A stretch of DNA of 64,000 bases, taken from contig NC_018015.1 in NCBI RefSeq assembly GCF_000265525.1, positions 310,001-374,000 on the forward strand. Reading direction: 5' to 3'. Origin of the DNA: Thermococcus cleftensis. Lineage in GTDB: Archaea; Methanobacteriota_B; Thermococci; Thermococcales; Thermococcaceae. A model generated the notes under the pieces. That model was given only the letters and a program-made list of their open reading frames with translations. It was not told where the DNA came from and did not search any database. The translations under genes and the position numbers were made by a program. Shown in pieces: positions 1,796-55,314 of the stretch; the first letter of the stretch is position 1, and every line of letters begins with the position of its first letter.

Positions 1796-4544
<2,749 letters not shown>

Positions 4545-14325: not shown

Positions 14326-14946
14326 TCAGATTTCGCCCTCTATCTCGCGCCTTATCCTCTCAATGAATTCAAGGGTAAAGACGTGTCTCTCCTCGGCAAT
14401 CCTCCTGGCGGTTTCGGTGTACATCAAATCCTTGAGCTTGAAGATCTTCTCCTCGAAGTGCCTTAGAGAGGCCTCTATGTCCCTTCCATTCTCGCCCGAG
14501 TACATAAAAACACGCGCTATTCCGATAGCACCAATCGCGTCAAGCTTGTCGGCGTCGCTCAGGATTTTTGCCTCGAGCGTTTTCGGCTCGGGTCCCCTCG
14601 AAAAGCGATGGGCTTCGATGGCATGGGCGACAGCTTCAACCTTCTCCTCGGGGTAACCTAGGCTCGTCAGGAAACGCCTCGCAATTTTTGCACCCTCAAC
14701 CGCGTGGTCCTCGACCTTCCCCGCGCTCTCCAGGGGCCTCGCTATGTCGTGGAGGAGAGAGGCCAAAGCGAGCACCTCTAAATCGGCCCCCTCCTCCCTG
14801 CCGATGTGGAGGCAGAGGTTGAAGACCCTTTCGGTATGGCTAAAGCCGTGCGTCCCTTCCCTCTCGAAGAAGCCCCTCGCGAACTCCCTCGTCCGTTCTA
14901 TCAATCTGATTGAATCCTCTTCCCTTATGAAGTCTTCCAGCCTCAT
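14326..14946 (-). CDS. HD-domain phosphohydrolase
   Basis: 206 residues of the HD superfamily. Metal ligands are visible as HGFSHTERV (first His), LASLLHDIARPLE (the HD pair, about residues 67-68) and LSDADKLDAIGAIGIAR (distal Asp). The pattern is closest to the YedJ/YpgQ-like group of small HD hydrolases acting on nucleotides or other phosphoesters; the substrate is unknown. Its ATG overlaps the stop of the DUF4392 gene as ATGA. It is the last gene of a five-gene operon that begins with the FtsZ-like gene at 17349. Confidence 0.87.
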   Translation of the reverse strand: MRLEDFIREEDSIRLIERTREFARGFFEREGTHGFSHTERVFNLCLHIGREEGADLEVLALASLLHDIARPLESAGKVEDHAVEGAKIARRFLTSLGYPEEKVEAVAHAIEAHRFSRGPEPKTLEAKILSDADKLDAIGAIGIARVFMYSGENGRDIEASLRHFEEKIFKLKDLMYTETARRIAEERHVFTLEFIERIRREIEGEI

Positions 14947-15761
14947 TCCACCACCTTGAGGGAATCCTTGACGAGCACGTTTAAAAGCTCAACGATGGCA
15001 TCGTGAACGCTCAAGCTTACCCCGTCCACGGAAGGCGTCTGGGTCTTCAGGACACCGTCGATTAACCCGAGCTTCGAGATGGCCTTCACTATCGTCCTCT
15101 CGTCCCAGCCGGGGAGCAGCTCCCTCCCTAACTCAATTGAGGCCTGGGCAACGAGGCCATAGGCGCCCCAGTTGGAAACGGCCGAGAGGATCAGCTCATC
15201 GGTCTCCACGACGCTTGCTATTCTCTCACCATGGGGAACGTGCTTGACGACCAGATCCCTTATCCTGCCCATTCCAGCCTCGTTTCCCCCGTCGCCTATG
15301 CCTATCGTTGGCACCCCAACCTCTCTAGCCTTGAGGATAACACCGTCAAAAGTTTCCCTCGTTATCTCCAGCCCACTCATGGAGTAGTACCTCCCATCGG
15401 CCGCCCTGCCGGGGGTTTCCACCGCGATGACCAGAGAATAGGAGGAAACGTCCGGTTCCCTGACGAATTCCAGTCCAAAGGCATCGAGTGCATTTTCCAC
15501 CTCGGGATAAGTCAGTATCTCCACCCTGCCGCCGAGGGTTTCAACGGCCTTGGCCAGGGCCAGCGTTCCCGGCGGCCCGTCGGTCTCGGCGCGCATGGTG
15601 GGGGGTATGGGGAAGCCCGTGACGATGAGCACTCTATCATAATTGTCCAAAAACATTTTTGCAGAATTATGTAAAAAATTGGGATTCCTCCTGCGGTAGT
15701 CCAGGTACAGGCCCAGAACCCCGCGGTTTCCCACGTCGGTGTTTATGAGGTGGGCTATCAT
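14943..15761 (-). CDS. DUF4392 protein, D-glutamate cyclase-like
   Basis: 272 residues. It resembles the DUF4392 / D-glutamate cyclase C-terminal family: VLIVTGFPIPPTMRAETDGPPGTLALAKAVE at the N-terminus, VETPGRAADGRYYSMSG in the middle, and IGIGDGGNEAGMGRI, a glycine-rich acidic loop likely to be in the active site. Mammalian D-glutamate cyclase turns D-glutamate into 5-oxoproline; whether the archaeal protein does the same is not known. It starts four bases after the stop of the 59-residue protein and its own stop overlaps the HD gene, so it is embedded in the operon. Confidence 0.8.
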   Translation of the reverse strand: MIAHLINTDVGNRGVLGLYLDYRRRNPNFLHNSAKMFLDNYDRVLIVTGFPIPPTMRAETDGPPGTLALAKAVETLGGRVEILTYPEVENALDAFGLEFVREPDVSSYSLVIAVETPGRAADGRYYSMSGLEITRETFDGVILKAREVGVPTIGIGDGGNEAGMGRIRDLVVKHVPHGERIASVVETDELILSAVSNWGAYGLVAQASIELGRELLPGWDERTIVKAISKLGLIDGVLKTQTPSVDGVSLSVHDAIVELLNVLVKDSLKVVE

Positions 15762-15764
15762 GGC

Positions 15765-15944
15765 TCATTCCCCTATCTCGTACACGACCACCTTAACCCT
15801 CTTTCCCTTCACGGCCTCCTTGAGCTTCCACCATAGCTCCGTCGGCTTCTCACTCCTGTGGGTCAGCTCGTGGCCGTTCTCAAGTTTGACCTTCTTCTCC
15901 GAATACTCGACAAAGACGCCCTCCCCACTGAATATCTCCTTCAT
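15765..15944 (-). CDS. small conserved-looking protein, 59 residues
   Basis: A 59-residue frame beginning MKEIFSGEGVFVEYSEKKV and ending VKVVVYEIGE. Several signs support it. Its ATG overlaps the HAD gene stop as ATGA, GGGGG precedes it, its stop lies three bases before the DUF4392 ATG, and leaving it out would leave a 180-base hole in a tight operon. The alternation of hydrophobic and charged residues suggests a small beta-barrel or beta-sheet fold. No family was recognised. Confidence 0.75.
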   Translation of the reverse strand: MKEIFSGEGVFVEYSEKKVKLENGHELTHRSEKPTELWWKLKEAVKGKRVKVVVYEIGE

Positions 15945-16585
15945 TCCAATCCCCCCAGGATTTTTCTAAGCTCGTGAAGGGCCCTAATCTCGTAATCCGC
16001 CATGTTGTAACCGATTTCACCTTCCCGGTTTATCCAGACGGCGGTCATTCCAACGTTCTTGGCACCGTAAACGTCCTGGCTCAGTGAGTCGCCGACCATA
16101 ACCGCCTCACCGGGCTCGACTCCCAGGGCTTCAAGGGAGTAGAGGAAAATTTTAGGTTCGGGCTTTATGGTCCTCACGTCCTCGCGGGTGACGATTACGT
16201 CAAAGTACCCCAAAAGGCCGGTCAGCTCGAGCTTGAGCCTCTGGTACTCTGGCCCGCTCGTGACGGCGCCCAGGAGGTAGCCCTCTTTTTTGAGCCACTC
16301 GAGGGTCGGCACCGTGTCGGGATAAACCTTGAGCCTGTGGGGGTATCTTTTTAGGAGCTCTTCGTAGCGTAGGTCGAGGTCGAAGAGCCTGAAGAAGAAG
16401 TTCCAGTCGTGCCAGTCGTAGGTGTCCCTCCTTTCGAATATCTCGGCCAGAAAGCGCTCCCTTGCCTCGTCCTTGCTGATTCCAAGCTTTTTCGAGAGCC
16501 TGTCGTAGACCTGCGGGAGGAAGAGCTGGATAAGAGGCATCTCTGTCAATATCGTCCCATCGATGTCGAAGAGAACCGCCTTCAT
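15941..16585 (-). CDS. HAD-superfamily hydrolase
   Basis: 214 residues. It has HAD motif I VLFDIDGTIL at the N-terminus, motif II VTSGPE, the Lys of motif III in KPEPKIF, and motif IV VMVGDSLSQDVYGAKN. A helical C1-type cap lies between residues 15 and 90. It belongs to the small archaeal HAD group that includes phosphatases of sugars and nucleotides; the substrate cannot be deduced. ATG 16585 is preceded by GGTGAT. It is the second gene of the operon, overlapping neither stop nor start of the FtsZ-like gene but separated by only eight bases. Confidence 0.87.
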   Translation of the reverse strand: MKAVLFDIDGTILTEMPLIQLFLPQVYDRLSKKLGISKDEARERFLAEIFERRDTYDWHDWNFFFRLFDLDLRYEELLKRYPHRLKVYPDTVPTLEWLKKEGYLLGAVTSGPEYQRLKLELTGLLGYFDVIVTREDVRTIKPEPKIFLYSLEALGVEPGEAVMVGDSLSQDVYGAKNVGMTAVWINREGEIGYNMADYEIRALHELRKILGGLE

Positions 16586-16593
16586 TCTATCAC

Positions 16594-17349
16594 CTACCAC
16601 TTCTTAACCAGCAGTGCCAGTATCTCGACCCTGCCGTTTAAACTTTCGTCCGTTATGACGCCCCATATTATGTCCTTCTCCGACAGTACCTCCTGAAAGT
16701 TCCGCAGTATGCTGTGGGCGCCCCTCAGTGGAAAGTCGCTCCCGACCAGGATTCCAATCAGGCCCCTCTCCCATATCCCCCAGTGCCAGGTGAAATCCAC
16801 CTCGCGGAGGAGGCGAAGTATGCCCACGTTGCCCCCTCGGATCATGTTGAAGAGGTCCGCATAGTCGATGTTCACGAGCATCTGCGTTTCCAGGTAGTAG
16901 TAGAGACGGGAGAACATCTCGGCTATGTTGGCAGAGGCTCTCTCAAAAGCTTTTACCAGGGAAACGTTTTCATCGGAGAAGAAGTCCCAGAGGGAGTCGT
17001 AGAAGACCGTTTCAAATTCCCGTGCCCAGGAGGGTTTTTTCTCCTCAACAAGTTCCTTGCGGGGAGTGAGGACGTAGGCCAGCTTTATGGTATCCCCCGG
17101 GGCACTCTCGGTTATGATTTCCCTGAGCTCGTGGTTGATGTCCTTGTCCTCGAACACGAGCCAGAGAAACGTGTCCCTTGGGAGCCTGGAAAAGAAGTTC
17201 CTCAGCCGATCCTCGTAACTATTGGAGTTCGGAAGGAGATAGTATGCTGGATTGACGGTTACCTTGACTATCCCGTCGGCAGTGATGCTGTTTACAATCC
17301 TCGCTCCGGTTCCCCCGATTCCGACGAAGACGTGGGTAAAAGACTGCAT
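16594..17349 (-). CDS. divergent FtsZ/tubulin-superfamily protein lacking the GTP signature
   Basis: 251 residues. By eye it aligns with the genuine FtsZ at 54196-55314. Residues 10-22 (GIGGTGARIVNSI) match the T1 loop [13 protein letters not shown]. Residues 158-171 (MLVNIDYADLFNMI) match the T7 loop [14 protein letters not shown] and keep the NxDxxD residues (N160, D162, D165). Residues 226-248 (from KDIIWGVITDESLNG) match the last strand region of FtsZ ([13 protein letters not shown]). In the place of the T4 signature GGGTGTG there is FEDKDINHEL, so the normal phosphate-binding loop is missing. It is also about 120 residues shorter than FtsZ. A structural or regulatory role on cell-division filaments is inference. 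It is first of five operon genes. Confidence 0.75.
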   Translation of the reverse strand: MQSFTHVFVGIGGTGARIVNSITADGIVKVTVNPAYYLLPNSNSYEDRLRNFFSRLPRDTFLWLVFEDKDINHELREIITESAPGDTIKLAYVLTPRKELVEEKKPSWAREFETVFYDSLWDFFSDENVSLVKAFERASANIAEMFSRLYYYLETQMLVNIDYADLFNMIRGGNVGILRLLREVDFTWHWGIWERGLIGILVGSDFPLRGAHSILRNFQEVLSEKDIIWGVITDESLNGRVEILALLVKKW

Positions 17350-17400: not shown

Positions 17401-18621
17401 TCACTCAAGGGTGGCGTGCTTCCGTTTCATGTCCTTCTCGGTCTTCTGGAAGGTCGCCATGAGGAGCGCTATGACGCCGTCGAGGAATATCATCGTCGAG
17501 TCCTCGAAGAGGGTTCCCATCGGCGCTATCCACTTGTACTTCGTGAGCATCTGCCTCGCTATGTAGTCGGTTGGTATGTCGGTCTTGGCCCTTCCGGGTA
17601 TCTCAACGACGACATCAGCGAGCCTTCCAAGGGTCGAGCTGGCGTAGGAGGTTATCGCAACAACCTTGCCTCCCTGCTTCTTGGCTATCTCCGCGGCATC
17701 GACGATGCTGTTGGTCTCGCCGGAACCGCTGATGGCTATGAGGAGATCTCCTGGTTCAAACGCAGGTGTTATGGTCTCACCGACGACGTAAACGTTGAAG
17801 TCGAGGTGCATGAGCCTCATCGCGAAGGCCTTGCCGACGAGGCCGCTCCTGCCGGCGCCGTAGATGAATATCTTGTTGGCCCCTATCATGGCGTCGATGA
17901 AGCCGCGAACCTGATCAAGCTTCAGCTCTCCCGCGACGTTGTTGATGTGGTCGAGTATGTCGGTCATGGCCTTTCTTATGGTCATCATGTACTCGCCCCA
18001 GAAGAGGTCTATTATCTTCCTGGTGACTTCCTCCGGATCCTTGGCCTTGGTTATCGCGCCGCCGACGATTATTATGGTGGCGCCAAGCTCGACGACCTTG
18101 GGTATGGTATCAAGGTTTAAACCACCGGCCACCGCAACGGGAACGCTCACAGCCTTGACGACCTTTTCCAGGTCCTCCAGCGGGCTCTTGCCCTGAACCT
18201 GCTCGTCTATGCCCGTGTGGACGAGTATGTAGTGGACGCCCATCTTCTCGAGTTCCTTGGCGCGCTTAACCTTGTCCTTGACACCGATTAGATCGACCAT
18301 GACCCTGATTCCATACCTCCTGGCGACCTCGACCGCGTCCTTTATGGTCTTGTCGTCCGCGACGCCGAGGATAGAAACAACATCGGCACCGTGCCTGGCC
18401 GCCATCTCGACCTCCAGAGCGCCGGTGTCCATGGTCTTGAGGTCGGCGACGATTTTCCTGTCCGGAAAGCGCCTCTTGAGAAGCTCGACAGCGCGCATGC
18501 CTTCTTTCTTTATGAGCGGGGTCCCAACCTCTAGCCAGTGAGCGCCGCCCTTCGCAGCCTTCTCGGCTATAGAAATGGCCTGCTCAATATCAGTGAGATC
18601 CAGGGCAACCTGGAGTATCAT
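17401..18621 (-). CDS. bifunctional hexulose-6-phosphate synthase / 6-phospho-3-hexuloisomerase
   Basis: 406-residue fusion. Residues 1-210 are the synthase, an OMP-decarboxylase-like barrel with VALDLTD and VADLKTMDTG. Residues 225-406 are the isomerase, a SIS domain with IYGAGRSGLVGKAFAMRL and AISGSGETNSI. In T. kodakarensis the fused enzyme runs the ribulose monophosphate pathway in reverse, making ribulose 5-phosphate from fructose 6-phosphate with release of formaldehyde, in place of the missing oxidative pentose phosphate pathway. ATG 18621 follows GGAGGCGAGGAG. The frame is open for 40 more codons upstream, but that part runs into the promoter. Confidence 0.96.
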   Translation of the reverse strand: MILQVALDLTDIEQAISIAEKAAKGGAHWLEVGTPLIKKEGMRAVELLKRRFPDRKIVADLKTMDTGALEVEMAARHGADVVSILGVADDKTIKDAVEVARRYGIRVMVDLIGVKDKVKRAKELEKMGVHYILVHTGIDEQVQGKSPLEDLEKVVKAVSVPVAVAGGLNLDTIPKVVELGATIIIVGGAITKAKDPEEVTRKIIDLFWGEYMMTIRKAMTDILDHINNVAGELKLDQVRGFIDAMIGANKIFIYGAGRSGLVGKAFAMRLMHLDFNVYVVGETITPAFEPGDLLIAISGSGETNSIVDAAEIAKKQGGKVVAITSYASSTLGRLADVVVEIPGRAKTDIPTDYIARQMLTKYKWIAPMGTLFEDSTMIFLDGVIALLMATFQKTEKDMKRKHATLE

Positions 18622-18663
18622 CTCCTCGCCTCCGAAGAGTTTTCGATTTAAGCTTGCGATGCT

Positions 18664-18729
18664 ACTTTTTAAACTTTGGCATTGCAAATTAACATTTAGA
18701 TGTCCAAGAGCTCGGCCAAACTTTAAAAG
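18664..18729. promoter_or_regulatory. divergent promoters of HPS-PHI and the arginase-like gene
   Basis: The minus-strand box AGTTTAAAAA (18666-18675) lies about 50 bases before the HPS-PHI start. The plus-strand box CTTTAAAAG (18721-18729) lies about 35 bases before the arginase-like start at 18760. The two promoters are back to back. Confidence 0.6.
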
Positions 18730-18759
18730 CACGAGACCCAACAGGGGGCGGTGGAATCA

Positions 18760-54144: not shown

Positions 54145-54195
54145 CCACCTGCGTACAAAGTGGAACAGATGTTAAATTGCCCGGAGGGTGAAAAA

Positions 54196-55314
54196 ATGCT
54201 GAAGCTGATTGAAGACGCCATCGAAAGAACCTCCGCCGGCCTCAACCAGGTGCCGGAGGCCCCGAGCCAGACCGATGTTGATGAGGAGCTCAAGAGGATT
54301 CTTGAGCAGATTCAGGCTAAGATCTATGTCGTTGGTGTCGGCGGTGCCGGCTGTAACACCATTAACAGAATGATGCAGGTAGGAATCCAGGGGGCGAAGG
54401 TCATAGCCATCAACACCGATGCCCAGGACCTCCTCAAGGTCCGCGCTCACAAGAAGATACTCATCGGAAAGGAGCTTACCAGGGGCCTTGGAGCCGGGAA
54501 CAACCCCAAGATGGGCGAGGAGGCCGCGAAGGAGAGTGAGCGCGAGATAAGGGAGGCCCTCGAAGGGGCGGACATGGTGTTCATCACCTGCGGTCTCGGT
54601 GGAGGAACCGGAACGGGCGCAGCTCCAGTCGTGGCCGAGATAGCCAAGAAGATGGGCGCCCTCACCGTTTCAGTCGTCACCCTCCCGTTCACCGTCGAGG
54701 GCATAAGGCGCATAAAGAACGCCGAGTACGGCCTTGAGAGGCTCCGGAAGAACAGCGACACCGTCATAGTAATCCCGAACGACAAGCTTATGGAGGTAGC
54801 TCCGAACCTGCCGATCCACATGGCCTTCAAGGTCGCGGACGAGATACTCGTCCAGGCCGTCAAGGGCATAACCGAGCTCATCACCAAGCCCGGCCTGGTT
54901 AACCTTGACTTCAACGACGTCAGGGCAGTCATGAAGGACGGCGGCGTTGCGATGATAGGCATAGGCGAGAGCGACAGCGAGAAGAGGGCTTTAGAGGCCG
55001 CCCAGCAGGCCCTCAACAGCCCGCTCCTCGACGTGGACATAAGCGGTGCCAAGGGCGCTTTGATAAGCATAAGTGGAAGCGATGTCAAGCTCGAGGAGGC
55101 CCAGCAGATAATAGAGCTCGTCACCAGCAAGCTCGACCCGGAGGCCCAGGTTATCTGGGGCATACAGCTCGACGAGGAGCTCGGCAAGATGATTAGAATC
55201 CTCATCGTCGTCACCGGCGTCAGCTCACCCTACGCGGTGGCCGAGGAGGAGCCGGGCTACTACGGTGAGGAACAGGAGAGAAAAGTTATTAAGCTCGACC
55301 TTGACGAGCTTTGA
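54196..55314 (+). CDS. ftsZ: cell division protein FtsZ
   Basis: 372 residues. The GTPase forms the division ring. T1 is [15 protein letters not shown] (around residues 46-59), T4 the signature [12 protein letters not shown] (133-144), and T7 [14 protein letters not shown] with N236, D238 and D241. The C-terminus ends in a short acidic tail ([11 protein letters not shown]... VIKLDLDEL), which probably serves as the site for anchoring partners. ATG 54196 is chosen because GGAGGGTGA precedes it; the frame extends 12 codons upstream. The gene lies before secE and spt5, a common archaeal order. Confidence 0.96.

Follow-up and report, generated by a model that had tools for sequence, protein, structure and literature searches.

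Plant ARC3 carries an FtsZ-like N-terminal domain. It interacts with FtsZ and inhibits FtsZ assembly (PMC5471200), and it enhances the GTPase activity of FtsZ2 according to a title cited in PMC5855766. In FtsZ itself, GTP is contacted by loops T1 to T4 at the phosphates, by T5 at the ribose and by T6 at the base, and the Asn and two Asp residues of the T7 loop act on the GTP of the neighbouring subunit; filaments are polar, with T7 exposed at the growing end and incoming monomers binding via their GTP face (PMC8936486). Published surveys cover FtsZ1, FtsZ2, CetZ, FtsZl1, FtsZl2 and scattered non-canonical members (PMC2875224, PMC9856176, PMC9871819, PMC8178401, PMC7617429). FtsZl1 and FtsZl2 are divergent FtsZ-like families recognized by profile methods (Makarova and Koonin 2010, PMC2875224), and non-canonical tubulin-superfamily proteins have been reported from two Thermococcus strains only, Thermococcus sp. 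AM4 and T. gammatolerans (PMC9856176). The family described here does not appear in any of these surveys; Vaughan 2004, to which PMC2875224 refers for archaeal paralogues that lack motifs, might mention it. A literature search by presumed locus tags found no paper on the gene.

The gene lies in a 64,000-nucleotide stretch of Thermococcus cleftensis DNA (the window; Table 1), and its reading frame, 251 residues on the minus strand from an ATG start, stands exactly where the first-pass annotation had drawn it. Standard annotation would call the product hypothetical because its NCBIfam and Pfam scores lie far under the curated cut-offs. As a single sequence it scores 23.3 bits (E 3.4e-5) with NCBIfam FtsZ (TIGR00065), which places it outside that equivalog (curated cut-off 295.2 bits), and E 0.042 with Pfam FtsZ_C (PF12327; 15.7 bits in the genome search, E as low as 2.7e-4 in orthologues), and the Pfam search gave no match to the FtsZ/tubulin GTPase domain (PF00091). 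A single-sequence PDB search returned weak FtsZ matches at the three blocks that the first-pass annotation had aligned by eye. Promoter and terminator scans for the gene gave no signal above chance.

In hhalign comparisons the family profile matches the FtsZ2 profile with E 3.6e-12 and the FtsZ1 profile with 8.6e-9, against 0.13-0.2 for reversed FtsZ profiles and 0.05-0.56 for ten unrelated neighbouring families, and residues 8-246 are covered against a joint FtsZ1/FtsZ2/CetZ alignment (E 7.8e-9). The profile used for database searches, built from 33 orthologues, has M. jannaschii FtsZ as its top PDB match (E 2.1e-7, in collinear segments) and matches FtsZ2 in Thermococcaceae genomes with E as low as 7.6e-11 per genome. 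Two AlphaFold2 models, made with different lead sequences and shallow alignments of 13 rows, reached pLDDT 69 and 72, the C-terminal half being their weak part; Foldseek searches with both returned solely FtsZ structures among the matches listed (best 50), with probability 1.00 and TM-scores of ~0.6 by query length. Homology and the S1-H7-S10 topology, the latter read from models of low confidence in their C-terminal half, thus place the protein in the FtsZ/tubulin superfamily. A 47-sequence alignment and hhalign both show the three blocks in the order claimed, collinear with FtsZ1 as well as FtsZ2, and the proposed identity as an FtsZ-superfamily paralogue is upheld by sequence profiles, by fold prediction (an FtsZ fold whose C-terminal half is modelled with little confidence) and by conservation across the family; profile searches matched FtsZ and no unrelated Rossmann family. 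The genome also encodes FtsZ1, FtsZ2, one CetZ (as classified by Pfam) and SepF, and we are nearly certain that the 251-residue protein is a fourth tubulin-superfamily protein of the Thermococcaceae, derived from FtsZ and reduced to ~250 residues. Profile comparison gives FtsZ2 as the best-scoring relative. In the tree the paralogues, which evolve fast, form one clade on a stem of ~7 changes per site with no placement among the FtsZs, so that descent from FtsZ2 rests on the profile scores and on the spelling of T7.

Whole-genome searches of 94 Thermococcaceae genomes detected an orthologue in 89, with a partial copy in one of these; three more genomes, which had brought the raw count to 92, matched through FtsZ2 only and were removed. 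In all five genomes without an orthologue the adjoining hps-phi gene is likewise absent or truncated at the end of a contig, so these absences are likely assembly gaps. Other sampled families of the same GTDB class and phylum yielded no orthologue, their matches being canonical FtsZs only, and on present evidence the family is therefore confined to the Thermococcaceae. Two short FtsZ matches from other families of the class (in genomes G112 and G108) were considered as possible intermediates and rejected, as they are canonical FtsZs with GGGTG.

Table 1. Coordinates of the FtsZ-like gene, its sequence elements, its neighbours and the reference FtsZ within the window
Feature	Position	Strand	Basis
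FtsZ-like gene, putative pseudo-GTPase, 251 aa	16594..17349	minus	ORF, ATG start; TIGR00065 3.4e-5
T1-like phosphate loop FVGIGGTG, residues 8-15	17305..17328	minus	F8, G10, G12, G15 invariant in 67 orthologues; FtsZ alignment
T4 site, FEDKDINHEL, residues 66-75	17125..17154	minus	hhalign, MAFFT; FtsZ G-x-GGGTGTG deleted
S6/T6 region FETVFYDSLW, residues 112-121	16987..17016	minus	highest conservation in the family; IxNDKL in FtsZ
Core helix H7, residues 131-155	16885..16959	minus	AlphaFold2 secondary structure; aligned to FtsZ H7
T7 synergy loop MLVNIDYAD, residues 157-165	16855..16881	minus	N160, D162, A164, D165 invariant
WHWGIW motif in place of FtsZ H9 segment, residues 188-193	16771..16788	minus	family-specific; WxWGxW in all orthologues
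FtsZ_C-like S8-H10-S9-S10 with DIIWG, residues 197-245	16615..16761	minus	PF12327 matches
hps-phi, bifunctional hexulose-6-phosphate synthase / phosphohexuloisomerase, upstream	17401..18741	minus	NF041755 2.6e-167
HAD hydrolase, TIGR02253 subfamily, downstream	15941..16585	minus	family search; synteny
Small conserved ORF, ~60 aa	15765..15947	minus	no Pfam/NCBIfam match; synteny
Stand-alone D-glutamate cyclase-like C-terminal domain gene (GLUCM-like)	14943..15761	minus	PF14336, 8e-69
Canonical FtsZ1, reference	54160..55314	plus	TIGR00065 8.4e-136

The anatomy of the protein was read from the 47-sequence MAFFT alignment with FtsZ, in which the elements S1-T1-H1-S2-H2-S4-H4-S5-S6-H6-H7-T7-H8-S7-S8-H10-S9-S10 are retained in order, including the GxGxxG of T1. 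The first-pass annotation had placed FEDKDINHEL where T4 should be, and hhalign and MAFFT agree: at the GMGNGTGTG segment of FtsZ the protein carries an exact 8-residue deletion, after which EDKDINHEL follows. GxGTG is absent from all 67 distinct orthologues, which thus lack the tubulin signature GGGTG[TS]G; a T4-like pattern match in one of them proved to be the T1 loop (GGTGAG). Compared with FtsZ, the protein further lacks T3/H3 (~29 residues), the H9 segment, both terminal tails and part or most of T5-H5. Of the guanine contacts, the T6 Asn is replaced (NDKL to YDSL, in a T6 register uncertain by three residues) and the H7 Asp has become a small residue. Since T3 and T4 are deleted and the T6 and H7 contacts replaced, and given the roles of these loops in FtsZ (PMC8936486), GTP binding of the FtsZ type is predicted to be lost.

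The other half of the active site is invariant. T7 reads NxDxAD in 67 of 67 distinct orthologues, which agrees both with the superfamily pattern NxDxxD and with the retention that the first-pass annotation had noted, and its window ranks 6th of 241 when conservation is scored over 11-residue windows across the 67 orthologues. The spelling is that of FtsZ2 in these genomes (NIDFAD/NIDYAD), unlike the NLDFND of FtsZ1. Further conservation peaks fall at S6/T6 (FETVFYDSLW), WHWGIWERG, S7 and S9, and 50 positions are invariant across the 67 orthologues. Values of dN/dS against close relatives are 0.035-0.099, with dS near saturation; such strong purifying selection indicates that the gene is functional.

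Set beside the described systems, the protein shares with the FtsZ2 and FtsZ1 of Thermococcales the fold order, T1 GxGxxG, H7 and an FtsZ_C core with xxIxWG, and with archaeal FtsZ2 the T7 NxDxAD, but it lacks T3, T4, the guanine contacts and the C-terminal tail, has WHWGIW in place of H9, and measures ~250 residues against ~380-450 for FtsZ. CetZ, also of the tubulin superfamily and present in one copy in the same genome, shows the reverse pattern, keeping GGGTG with a T7 that reads TLDASD here. Assignment to CetZ was rejected, as the genome's CetZ is a separate gene and an intact GTP site is required. FtsZl1 and FtsZl2 keep GGGTG(S/T)G, and FtsZl1 lacks a recognizable T6-H7, whereas the present protein has no GTP loop and keeps H7-T7; as defined in PMC2875224, neither family accommodates it, since that loop is absent and its C terminus is FtsZ_C-like. 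The AM4 and T. gammatolerans proteins likewise represent an extra divergent member in Thermococcus (PMC9856176), but they are known from two strains, in contrast to nearly all Thermococcaceae for the present family, which that paper does not include. ARC3 offers a possible functional likeness, since it too would be a derivative of FtsZ with an influence on FtsZ assembly (for its effect on FtsZ, PMC5471200 and, by cited title, PMC5855766), with the differences that it has a MORN domain, works in the chloroplast and is of independent origin. The protein described here keeps T7.

The identity of the family is firm, and the mechanism is what we infer from it. Because the GTP loop is lost but T7 strictly retained, control of FtsZ filaments is possible. 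The first-pass annotation suggested that the protein caps or tunes one end of an FtsZ filament. FtsZ polarity (PMC8936486) sharpens this, as it implies that a subunit with only T7 would address free monomers, at their GTP face, and the nucleotide-exposing, non-growing filament end, whereas the growing end exposes T7; it would compete for GTP-loaded monomers, cap the nucleotide end and could trigger hydrolysis. We accordingly propose as the most likely reading, with a probability of about 0.4, a pseudo-GTPase peculiar to the Thermococcaceae that would control FtsZ by presenting its T7 face to the GTP-loaded form. It would not itself bind GTP in the FtsZ manner; through T7 it would dock on the GTP-bearing nucleotide face of FtsZ, with FtsZ2 as the first candidate, either on the soluble monomer or at the slow filament end, and would there block further stacking, trigger GTP hydrolysis or both, making it a GAP-like cap or a monomer sequesterer without a tail of its own for SepF. 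The proposal is favoured by the homology, the loss of the GTP site, the invariant and highly conserved T7 with its FtsZ2-like spelling, the action of the T7 Asn and Asp residues on the neighbour's GTP in FtsZ, the purifying selection, near-universal presence in the Thermococcaceae, the possible partners FtsZ1, FtsZ2 and SepF in the genome and the ARC3 precedent. Against it stand the metabolic gene neighbours and the conserved S6/T6 side described below, and the low model confidence in the C-terminal half; the longitudinal interface may also have been changed by the deletions near H9 and H5 and by the insertion of WHWGIW, and T7 may be retained for folding reasons. A narrower form, in which the protein uses its T7 half-site in trans on FtsZ2, either capping it and activating its GTPase or sequestering it, and thereby ties division to pentose synthesis (the hps-phi operon), we consider rather unlikely.

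If T7 donation is correct, the protein would be a new type of archaeal FtsZ regulator, of which, to our knowledge, few are known. The FtsZ active site is split over two subunits, and here one half is deleted and the other strictly retained, which would make this protein a clean test of the T7 face acting alone; the Thermococcaceae include genetically tractable species.

The genomic neighbourhood supplies the main rival, doubtful but deserving weight, in which the FtsZ fold would now serve its own operon (HPS-PHI and the HAD phosphatase) as a scaffold, regulator or ligand sensor. The rebuilt T5/T6 pocket would then bind another protein or a sugar phosphate, with no role in division. The order hps-phi, FtsZ-like gene, HAD hydrolase, small ORF and GLUCM-like gene is common to all Thermococcaceae genera examined, and hps-phi adjoins the FtsZ-like gene in every intact orthologous locus examined, in many genomes at a spacing of 9-60 bp. 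In the window the start of hps-phi may lie downstream of 18741, and the HAD hydrolase ATG falls 8 nt past the stop of the FtsZ-like gene. No division gene stands beside the FtsZ-like gene in any locus examined, the neighbours being sugar-phosphate and other metabolic genes. The GTP site is deleted, and on the former nucleotide face the S6/T6 side holds the top conserved windows and equals T7 in conservation, so that the conserved function may lie there; together with the metabolic operon this leaves room for an HPS-PHI or ligand role. Against it, the T7 catalytic residues are invariant though they are not required for a role of this kind, the protein has no enzyme-like motif and no family match except FtsZ, and synteny in archaea can mean shared expression only. 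The small ORF (15765-15947) shows ~57-80% identity across the Thermococcaceae, between the HAD and GLUCM-like genes.

Conservation on both the T7 and the former nucleotide side, within a complete S1-S10 fold order, would also suit a nucleotide-independent copolymer subunit that is built into FtsZ filaments by contacts on both faces (T7 below, the rebuilt top above) and, as a joint that does not hydrolyse GTP, alters how stable they are or how they turn over. This we regard as improbable, as T3, T4 and much of T5-H5, the builders of the top interface in FtsZ, are gone.

Chance resemblance of an unrelated Rossmann-like protein, to which the weak lone single-sequence Pfam match and the pLDDT near 70 might point, is extremely unlikely in view of profile E-values with clean controls and of a PDB profile search and two fold searches headed by FtsZ alone. 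A decaying FtsZ pseudogene, which would fit the long stem branch and a broken extra copy in one genome, is just as improbable and already contradicted by the dN/dS range, the invariant positions and intact genes in 89 of 94 genomes (counting the one partial copy). That broken copy belongs to a duplicated region (loci L072, G069:C2:358500-364500, 2448-3199, and L073): L072 has a truncated hps-phi and a stop within the FtsZ-like gene, and the L073 copy is intact. One other assembled genome carries two intact FtsZ-like genes, each beside hps-phi (L074, G066:C33, and L035, G066:C157), which could reflect a mixed assembly.
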